Shown here piece by piece: positions 33,693 to 35,329 of a stretch of 35,329 nt of DNA. Within the stretch, counting starts at the first letter, position 1, and every line of letters starts with the position of its first letter. This DNA comes from Clostridia bacterium (GTDB taxonomy: Bacteria > Bacillota > Clostridia > Oscillospirales > Acutalibacteraceae). The notes beneath the pieces were generated by a model that made no database searches, had not been told where the DNA came from, and saw nothing but the letters and a program-made list of their open reading frames with translations. Location: contig JAFTVI010000010.1 of assembly GCA_017465825.1 (NCBI GenBank), positions 1-35,329 on the forward strand, written 5' to 3'. Position numbers and translations under genes: made by a program.

Positions 33693-33730
33693 GTGGTGTC
33701 GGTGAAAACCGACACCACCTTTTCTTTTTC
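33693..33730 (+). terminator. Strong plus-strand terminator with GAAA tetraloop
   Basis: GTGGTGTCGGT (33693-33703) and ACCGACACCAC (33708-33718) pair perfectly around GAAA. CTTTTCTTTTTC follows. It ends any transcript entering from the left, 15 bp before the promoter of the noncoding RNA. Confidence 0.8.
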
Positions 33731-33740
33731 GAGAAAGCTC

Positions 33741-33769
33741 TTGACAAACAAACAAATGTTCCGTATAAT
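33741..33769 (+). promoter_or_regulatory. Consensus promoter of the noncoding transcript
   Basis: TTGACA (33741-33746), exactly 17 nt, TATAAT (33764-33769): a perfect housekeeping promoter. No gene with a ribosome site follows before the terminator at 34009. Confidence 0.9.
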
Positions 33770-33775
33770 AGCAAA

Positions 33776-34009
33776 TTGGTAAATAATGTATTTACCCTAC
33801 AACTAAATATCAACTGAAACACATATTTTTTACTTATTGGCTTTATGCCAACACATATTATCTGACAAAAAAGTATGGTCCGATACTCAGTCAGCAACAT
33901 ACGGACAATCAGAGCTTAATTTTTAAGCCGTTACATAGTTTCAGTACAAACTGTGCGAGAGGATGAAATGTCCTCCCGCTATTTGTGCTGTCTATGTGAC
34001 GGCTTTTTT
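33776..34009 (+). ncRNA. Putative structured noncoding RNA, about 235 nt
   Basis: It is bounded by a consensus promoter and a T6 terminator. From 5': a perfect 7-bp hairpin (GGTAAAT/ATTTACC, about 33778-33797); TTGGC/GCCAA; a stem CTGAC (33862-33866)/GTCAG (33890-33894) topped by GTAT/ATAC, whose loop base GTCCG (33878-33882) can pair with CGGAC (33902-33906) as a pseudoknot; then a long hairpin. That hairpin has a 14-bp stem (33925-33938/33992-34005), 9 further pairs (CAGTACAAA/TTTGTGCTG) and a GC-rich cap. The longest ORFs are under 15 codons and lack ribosome sites. I cannot assign an Rfam family. The position beside a recombinase suggests an element-borne regulator. Confidence 0.7.
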
Positions 34010-34075
34010 GTTGTGCAATTTTAACGAAAATAAAAAAGTTTTCGATTTTGGTTGATTTTTTGCCTTTCTAAACCC

Positions 34076-34207: not shown

Positions 34208-34241
34208 ATGTTTTCTCTCGTGTACCTTGACAACTGAATGA

Positions 34242-34336
34242 CCGTCCGAAAGTGATACTACGCCAAGACCTCGTAAGAGCGAGCGTGAAGACGTTGCGGT
34301 GAGATTCCGGAGCAGGAACTATTTCGGGTAAAACGG
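34242..34336 (+). other. Possible second structured RNA segment
   Basis: Nested stems CCGT/ACGG (34242-34245/34333-34336) and CCGAAA/TTTCGG (34246-34251/34322-34327) close a domain. It contains CTCG/CGAG, CGCC/GGTG with a wobble, and TTCC/GGAA. No ORF of note runs through it. No strong promoter was found, although TTGACA occurs just upstream at 34227-34232. It resembles nothing I can name. Confidence 0.35.
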
Positions 34337-34411
34337 CAAAATAATACTTTTATTATGGAACATTTTTATAGTATTTATTCCCATTACTATTAGGGGCGTT
34401 TTTTATAAAAT

Positions 34412-34443
34412 GAAAACTGCCCCCACAAATGTGAGAGCAGCTT
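34412..34443 (-). terminator. Terminator after the XRE/membrane regulator
   Basis: On the minus strand, CTGC...TCAC, loop ATTT, GTG...GCAG forms an imperfect hairpin followed by TTTTCATTTT, starting about 28 bp after the stop codon. Confidence 0.65.
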
Positions 34444-34948: not shown

Positions 34949-35329
34949 GCAAAACACAACGCAAAGTGCCACCACATTTACTTTACAAATCCGCAACATA
35001 ACTTTACATCGTTTTGAAAACCTGATTTTTTTCTAATTATATCACACACCCACCACACAATTCAATATATGTACCGACACTTGTTACAGCAGTAGCAGGT
35101 GTTTTTATATACCAAAAACAAATATCGGTATATGAATACTGCGTTGCATTTTTATATTTGATAACCGCCCCCCCACAAAAGCATCTCGGTATAAAGGATA
35201 CTACAGCCACCCTTACATAGCGAAGCTCGTCTGCGTAGTATTCCGCAACTAAAGTCGCTCCCTTGATAAGCGAGAAATTTTAGTTTATGAGCCTCGCAGA
35301 GCCCACTGACATCTTTGCACGGTGAAGGC
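34949..35329. other. Gene-free right end of the window
   Basis: No convincing gene is visible. Two related segments, ATCGGTATATGAATACTG (near 35132) and CTCGGTATAAAGGATACTAC (near 35186), look like a diverged direct repeat. A minus-strand frame of about 58 codons (35328-35155) is open but has no start or ribosome site. The DNA reads like element backbone cut by the window edge. Confidence 0.3.

Follow-up and report, generated by a model that had tools for sequence, protein, structure and literature searches.

Promoter, predicted transcript, and terminators at the window locus

Toward the end of the window, by which we mean the entire 35,329-nt stretch of Clostridia DNA analyzed here, a perfect TTGACA-17-TATAAT promoter on the forward strand (33741–33769, 12 of 12 positions) is followed by a region that we conclude with high confidence to encode a real structured RNA (33776–34010, +), which is a new family as far as Rfam and our literature searches go. 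The 5′ end of this RNA is placed from the promoter, and its 3′ end is the T tract, with T6 at 34004–34009. An intrinsic terminator of 11 pairs with a GAAA loop lies upstream in an insulator-like position (33693–33718, +), and several other copies have a similar hairpin preceding the RNA. The original prediction had named the promoter, about 235 nt devoid of a plausible open reading frame (ORF), the T6 terminator, and the GAAA-loop terminator, and all four were recovered. No sense ORF of at least 30 aa is contained within the RNA, and a 30-aa ORF that begins at 33963 extends beyond the RNA terminator; on the opposite strand, an ORF of 71 aa overlaps the RNA. A leader peptide was considered and rejected, as no short ORF common to the groups of copies described below could be found by eye.

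At a looser threshold (9 of 12 or better), promoter matches occur at chance level, with 9 found and 8.9 expected; terminator-like sites in the 2.5 kb scanned number 8 versus 1.4 expected. The RNA (33776–34012) has a minimum free energy of −69.7 kcal/mol versus −43.1 (sd 4.3) for shuffled sequences (z −6.2), and none of 200 shuffles folds as well. Downstream, a reversed HTH gene separates the RNA from the start of an oriT-proximal region (35148–35329, +) that leads to a relaxase gene in relatives; here it is cut by the contig end, and the contig stops before any relaxase.

A new RNA family in Clostridia

Rfam 15 returned no family at the RNA in the window at gathering score, and among 32 RNA-bearing loci, some of which represent the same copy, the only matches were to tRNAs, none of them at the RNA. 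One Rfam scan of relatives gave no match even at E 0.5, and all matches seen at relaxed E-values were below the cut-offs of their own families. A known RNA family was thus rejected on the Rfam 15 gathering scores. No description of this RNA was found among the papers listed by our literature searches; one survey (PMC8040213) points to thousands of candidate RNAs in its supplements, among which this RNA may be included. The proposal of a new structured RNA is therefore supported by the lack of an Rfam 15 match as well as by the compensatory changes in homologs described in the next section.

The genome of the window contains a second copy of the RNA that is 93% identical. A DNA search of 198 genomes at E 0.01 matched 9, the window's own included, four of them by only short, weak matches; two genomes (G001 and G006) carry three copies each. 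The covariance search in relatives that had been suggested was run and uncovered an RNA family. R1, a covariance model of the RNA 3′ part, matched 33 of 398 family genomes at E 0.01, again including the window's own, with 15 of the 33 below 1e-12; of the matches above 1e-12, several look true by eye (L103, L104, L107, and L110). R2, a model of the most general part of the RNA, was run at E 0.001 on the order (26 matching genomes among 394) and on the class (8 among 391), and in a phylum sample at E 1e-4 it matched 2 of 398 genomes, the window's own and one other of its order. These R2 matches were partly inspected: L243 and L244 were judged by eye to be true copies, and L248 and L249 look like chance hairpins.

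A gapped DNA pattern found at least 119 stretches in genome_contigs, and the genome_contigs counts given below rest on 80 loci of these. The records are mostly titled Lachnospiraceae, Oscillospiraceae, or Clostridia and include cultured isolates and ruminant metagenome-assembled genomes (MAGs). Together we collected 118 raw and 86 distinct RNA copies, nearly all of them in Clostridia, which fall by eye into at least eight groups; the labels A to F used here were likewise assigned by eye. Contig titles that include Erysipelotrichales and Treponema are present among the matches listed, and these may reflect misplacement or contamination. One of them, L136 (JAGBBT010000114.1, a Treponema MAG), is a short contig with a single copy, for which either inter-phylum transfer or MAG contamination could account. 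An origin in plasmids or phages was rejected on DNA similarity, with no match in the plasmid or phage collection, and the gapped pattern had no match in viral_contigs.

A predicted pseudoknot and two competing hairpins

All elements of the predicted fold lie on the forward strand. The RNA begins with the 5′ hairpin of the original prediction, GGTAAATA-ATG-TATTTACC (33778–33796), which is present in the window RNA and kept in the 8 sequences of the window's own group. It is followed by ACAACTAAATA (33799–33809), which by eye is the local version of ACAACTGAATA, a motif found again close to the RNA 5′ end in several groups. An rRNA boxA as the source of this motif was not supported: TTGAMAACTGAATR has six sites in three genomes, the window's included, and Rfam scans place none of them beside rRNA. 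The center of the RNA is occupied by hairpin H1 (33862–33894; CTGAC..GTCAG with an inner AGTAT..ATACT), which is supported by comparison and whose loop carries the GTCCG strand (33878–33882) of a pseudoknot closed by CGGAC (33902–33906). Two further hairpins follow, P2 (GCTTAA..TTAAGC, 33914–33928) and the long terminator hairpin P3 with its T6 tract (AAGCCGTTACATAG..CTATGTGACGGCTT, 33925–34009), in which the G-U wobble pairs expected in the two outer stems are both present.

The loop-downstream pseudoknot is backed by comparison. The single-sequence minimum free energy structure lacks the pseudoknot hairpin and has GTCCG/CGGAC as a plain stem. For each of 45 representatives we calculated the best model combining H1 with a pseudoknot. 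The pseudoknot 3′ strand ends 13–20 nt before P3 in 33 of them, the position that it has in the window, versus 5.5 in shuffles; the representatives are related, and because they are kin, the shuffle expectations, both here and for the LexA dyad below, overstate independence. A test on single representatives gave p < 0.05 in 21 of 45 and p 0.066 for the window alone, and at the level of sequence comparison the common position is stronger evidence for the pseudoknot than these p values. The pseudoknot was not at the common position in the other 12 (L101, L102, L108, L109, L110, L114, L131, L133, L135, L150, L151, and L184).

Compensatory changes in homologs, which had been proposed as a check, were found in both the pseudoknot and P3. 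In P3, 96.3% of cells are paired across 18 distinct sequences, and the covariation score is 0.225 versus 0.127, a value that none of 500 shuffles reaches; pairs changed on both sides number 4 versus 1.9, which 39 of 500 shuffles match. The P3 5′ strand seems invariant in A5, in part as a product of the genome_contigs pattern, which required those letters; the R1 matches are free of this bias, and among them L108 and L110 show changes. P2 is kept in other groups with 90.5% of cells paired, but its covariation is not significant, 161 of 500 shuffles scoring as high on paired cells. Since 33925–33928 are common to P2 and the base of P3, the two hairpins are mutually exclusive, and by eye most groups show this overlap of P2 with the terminator. 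For the window, folding with a full P3 is favored by 4.5 kcal/mol over P2 combined with a shortened P3.

A conserved pseudoknot domain directly ahead of a mutually exclusive hairpin/terminator pair would fit a riboswitch-type attenuator, in which H1 and the pseudoknot would form an aptamer sensing a ligand or a protein and P2/P3 the expression platform. The pseudoknot letters, however, change completely between groups: 25 different pair strings occur among the 33 fitting representatives, from GUCCG/CGGAC in the window and GCUGCC/GGCAGC in group C to GGACUGU/ACAGUCC, GGUUCUG/CAGAACC, and CAGUGUCUGC/GCAGACACUG elsewhere. This is unlike a small-molecule aptamer, whose binding letters are fixed. 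Furthermore, no metabolic gene was seen downstream among 39 loci, and we regard a sensing attenuator of this type as unlikely.

The RNA heads the mobilization module of Tn4451-like elements

Gene neighborhoods place the RNA at a recurrent position in mobile elements, with a usual order of RNA, oriT, relaxase, sometimes ParB and TnpW, and a large serine recombinase. Relaxase-module genes were taken to be Mob_Pre, a DUF5906 gene preceding Mob_Pre, PF03432 relaxases, and MobC, and 28 of 39 loci have one on the same strand downstream of the RNA. A large serine recombinase, whole or fragmentary, lies downstream in 22 of 39. The available sequence shows no relaxase-module gene in the other 11, five of which reach the sequence end; L088 and L102 lack one despite more than 3.5 kb of downstream sequence. 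The genome_contigs loci give a similar picture: among the 42 of the 80 (not deduplicated) that have at least 2.5 kb of downstream sequence, 32 carry a relaxase-module gene together with a large serine recombinase, both in sense, and 7 carry neither, and upstream of the RNA a relaxase-module gene occurs in 0 of 59 and a recombinase in 4 of 59. At the diverged loci, with flanks of about 1.5 kb, a relaxase or recombinase match lies downstream in sense in 5 of 11.

The Pfam matches (Resolvase/Recombinase/Zn_ribbon/DUF4368, Mob_Pre or PF03432 relaxase, ParB_N, TnpW, and NikA-like) identify the carrier as a Tn4451-like integrative mobilizable element (IME), and the second copy in the window's own genome (on C35) is accompanied by all of a DUF4368 large serine recombinase, a Mob_Pre relaxase, and TnpW. 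Since some elements have Mob_Pre and others a PF03432 relaxase, the same RNA serves elements with unrelated relaxases. Several copies have, between the RNA and the relaxase, a stretch that we take to be like the MobV nic region of pMV158.

The original prediction had placed the RNA beside a tyrosine recombinase. This holds in the window and fails for the family: a tyrosine recombinase of that cluster is found within 3.5 kb upstream at 1 of 39 loci, the window itself, where it was sought by clustering with the window's protein, a procedure that could miss an unrelated one. A relative lies downstream in three other loci. The link between RNA and tyrosine recombinase was rejected, and the neighbor is incidental. 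RNA-guided recombination by analogy with bridge RNAs was set aside, on the ground that copies at different sites in one genome have nearly identical RNA.

A separate conserved stretch, which we call element Y (TTGACAACTGAATGACC...AAACGGCA, 34221–34338, + in the window), often lies downstream of the RNA and sometimes upstream. It accompanies the RNA in several groups (also in L019, excerpt 2257–2363, and in L103, L104, L110, L236, and L238) and could be a further structured RNA or else a site used in transfer.

A LexA-like box in the RNA promoter

The spacer of the window promoter contains AAACAAATGTTC (33750–33761, +), a dyad resembling a LexA/SOS box that agrees with GAAC-N4-GTTC at 7 of 8 positions; in the window's group the spacer reads RAACAAATGTTC. 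The pattern RAACAAATGTTY has 12 sites in the window's own genome versus 4 for a reversed-pattern control. One of these sites is upstream of lexA (PF01726 match), two are the two RNA promoters of this genome, and two precede an ORF that is DinB-like by reading of its sequence. Outside group C, at least 7 of the 8 dyad bases occur in the spacer of 31 of 47 distinct promoters (0.15 expected), and 15 of these 31 have all eight. The central four bases vary by group (AAAT, GCTT, GTTC, and ATTT), as expected if it is the dyad itself that is kept. The dyad is present in 0 of 15 distinct promoters of the Lachnospiraceae group C and in 0 of 3 in G001. Judging from these promoter sequences, SOS control of the RNA promoter is likely in the groups that have the box. 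At two further loci of the same genome, L030 and L042, SOS-box sites (GAACAAATGTTC) adjoin gene pairs that by sequence reading look like a nuclease-type toxin and a barstar-like inhibitor.

These promoter features bear on whether the conserved hairpins act at the level of DNA. The place of the RNA resembles that of single-strand origin (sso) elements in rolling-circle plasmids, and a long imperfect hairpin adjoining the oriT region of mobilizable elements could be used as an sso or other DNA-level structure while the element passes through a single-stranded stage in transfer or rolling-circle replication, a function that would be compatible with an RNA role. Kept alongside the hairpin, however, are features of transcription from double-stranded DNA, namely a promoter of 10–12 of 12, a LexA dyad in its spacer, and a 3′ T tract, and we consider an explanation at the DNA level very improbable.

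Leader of the mobilization genes or free RNA

If the RNA were an autonomous, SOS-induced small RNA (sRNA), it would end at its own terminator and act in trans on mRNAs of the element, a helper element, or the host, or on a protein. Its own promoter, strong terminator, and upstream insulation are all in keeping with such a role, as are the conservation of the P3 loop sequence within groups and the persistence of copies that have no downstream relaxase-module gene (L088 and L102) or that are cut off from oriT or the relaxase by a reversed gene (the window and L024). Against this stands the arrangement of promoters. The 28 loci with a relaxase-module gene yielded 25 elements in which the first mobilization gene is clear, after leaving out L024 (reversed gene between), L099 (RNA the same as in L098), and L105 (5′ part of the RNA missing) and taking an earlier MobC-like ORF as the first gene in L107. 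All 25 have an RNA promoter of 10–12 of 12, and in 24 of the 25 no promoter of at least 10 of 12 lies between the RNA 3′ end and the first mobilization gene, a distance of 122 to 1014 nt. The RNA promoter is thus usually the only good one ahead of the mobilization genes.

The second argument comes from genes inserted between the promoter and the RNA. In 10 of 80 genome_contigs loci, all with group C RNA (L112, L128, L130, L132, L145, L154, L155, L164, L165, and L189), a DUF6194-type gene directly precedes the RNA body. In 7 of these 10 the usual promoter is found upstream of that gene, 647–658 nt before P3 rather than the normal distance of about 177; in L132, L154, and L189 it was not found by pattern. 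L153 has another insert between promoter and RNA body. The inserted gene thereby explains some of the 12 of 86 distinct copies in which a promoter is missing at the usual place. It also led us to reject a candidate that these promoter-less group C copies had raised, an attachment site inside the RNA: the DUF6194-type gene accounts for 7 loci and the other insert for L153. This explanation covers neither L169, which is without a promoter, nor L100, L126, L163, and L167.

At the 7 loci where a protein gene intervenes, the RNA can form the tail end of an mRNA, an arrangement that a free sRNA would hardly tolerate. Taken together with the sole good promoter, this argues for a cis-acting terminator or leader. 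An sRNA also offers no explanation for the overlap of P2 with the terminator, and we consider it a possible but doubtful reading. The claim of an independent gene is doubtful, both because this is usually the sole recognizable promoter before the mobilization genes and because some copies have a protein gene between promoter and RNA.

We favor over an autonomous sRNA, with about even confidence, a reading of the stretch as the promoter and SOS-controlled leader RNA, with a conditional terminator, of an IME of the Tn4451 kind. Weighing against this reading are the variable distance from RNA to first gene, the reversed genes in the window and L024, the copies that lack a mobilization gene in the available sequence, the absence of the dyad from group C and G001, the copies with no promoter at the usual place, and the lack of covariation in P2 beyond shuffles. 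LexA would hold the promoter off until DNA damage occurs, whereupon RNA polymerase would make the leader and most transcripts would end at P3. If the leader adopted its alternative fold, with P2 formed and the base of P3 open, or if it modified the polymerase, as is thought for the canT RNA in Tn916, then transcription could read through into the mobilization and recombinase genes. We infer this read-through past P3. The element would then be under a double lock, by SOS at initiation and by RNA structure at elongation, and transcription entering from host promoters would be blocked by the terminator upstream. Gut bacteria exchange genes by way of small mobilizable elements, whose activation is poorly understood; with a conserved RNA and a LexA box heading the mobilization genes, both locks could be tested with simple reporters.

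Additional signals are visible on either side of the RNA. Before the relaxase, several copies of the window's group contain by eye a conserved TATATAAT within an inverted repeat; in the window, an inverted repeat surrounds a TATAAT-like core downstream of the RNA at about 34390–34425, and it is clearer in L002, L005, L007, L013, and L017. Such a repeat might serve as a relaxase promoter that is weak, repressed, or activated. In L019, L090, and L097, a promoter-like site with a spacer partly like an SOS box lies about 300–380 nt upstream of the RNA promoter. Beyond this site comes a conserved stretch containing two terminator-like hairpins, which might represent a third small RNA at the left end.

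Comparison with known antitermination systems and related elements

RNAs that carry out antitermination are known from exopolysaccharide operons (EAR) and from phage HK022 (put). Both are named in PMC11658703 and are like this RNA in that antitermination would be RNA-based; as far as EAR and put are represented in Rfam, neither matches it. The closest parallels in organization are found in conjugative elements. In Tn916, a terminator near the left end insulates the element, and the canT RNA is needed for transcription to proceed beyond terminators and reach the transfer genes (PMC11658703). The parallel with canT and the T1 terminator lies in a mobile-element RNA made from the main promoter and in the insulating left-end terminator; unlike the RNA described here, canT spans 452 nt and is brought upstream of the transfer genes only by excision, and the main text of PMC11658703 does not mention SOS. 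The likeness is drawn from the descriptions of the two systems. PMC8955417 describes for pLS20 a ConAn1 protein and a conAn2 RNA that let polymerase pass terminators. The conAn2 RNA likewise sits at the start of the conjugation operon; it differs in needing a partner protein and in belonging to conjugative Bacillus plasmids, and here too the likeness is drawn from description (PMC8955417).

The feature shared with such antiterminators, a promoter-proximal structured RNA before a transfer operon, is present in the family, although not in every copy. We tentatively suggest that these RNAs could constitute a new and widespread class of processive antiterminator RNAs, carried by mobilizable elements of gut Clostridia, in which the nascent pseudoknot RNA would modify the polymerase such that only transcripts from the SOS promoter would pass the terminator and continue into the genes for relaxase and recombinase. 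Transfer would thereby be coupled to DNA damage in elements whose relaxases belong to unrelated families. A class of RNA that is absent from Rfam 15, has a comparison-backed pseudoknot, and is present in multiple copies in some genomes would also offer a new model of how RNA controls termination.

The pemK RNA (RF02913) is also a structured RNA of Clostridia; RF02913 does not match the RNA described here, and the two differ in fold and place. In L252, L254, and L257, TTGAMAACTGAATA, a motif like that of element Y, lies about 140–200 nt upstream of pemK RNA, and the motif may therefore mark the leaders of mobile-element operons more widely.

Tn4451-type mobilizable elements, which we take to carry TnpX and TnpZ, are like the RNA carrier in having a DUF4368 large serine recombinase, a Mob_Pre relaxase, and a TnpW-like protein. 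R1 and R2 were both negative for the RNA in three plasmid regions that carry a related relaxase; a TnpW protein and a DUF4368 protein are annotated in one of these regions. In a Salmonella IncHI2A plasmid (L230, CP123681.1 69361–84482), a Tn4451-like set lies beside an aminoglycoside resistance gene; it comprises a plasmid recombination protein that is 49% identical, TnpW, and a DUF4368 protein, and neither model found the RNA there. Four more enterobacterial records matched besides this one.
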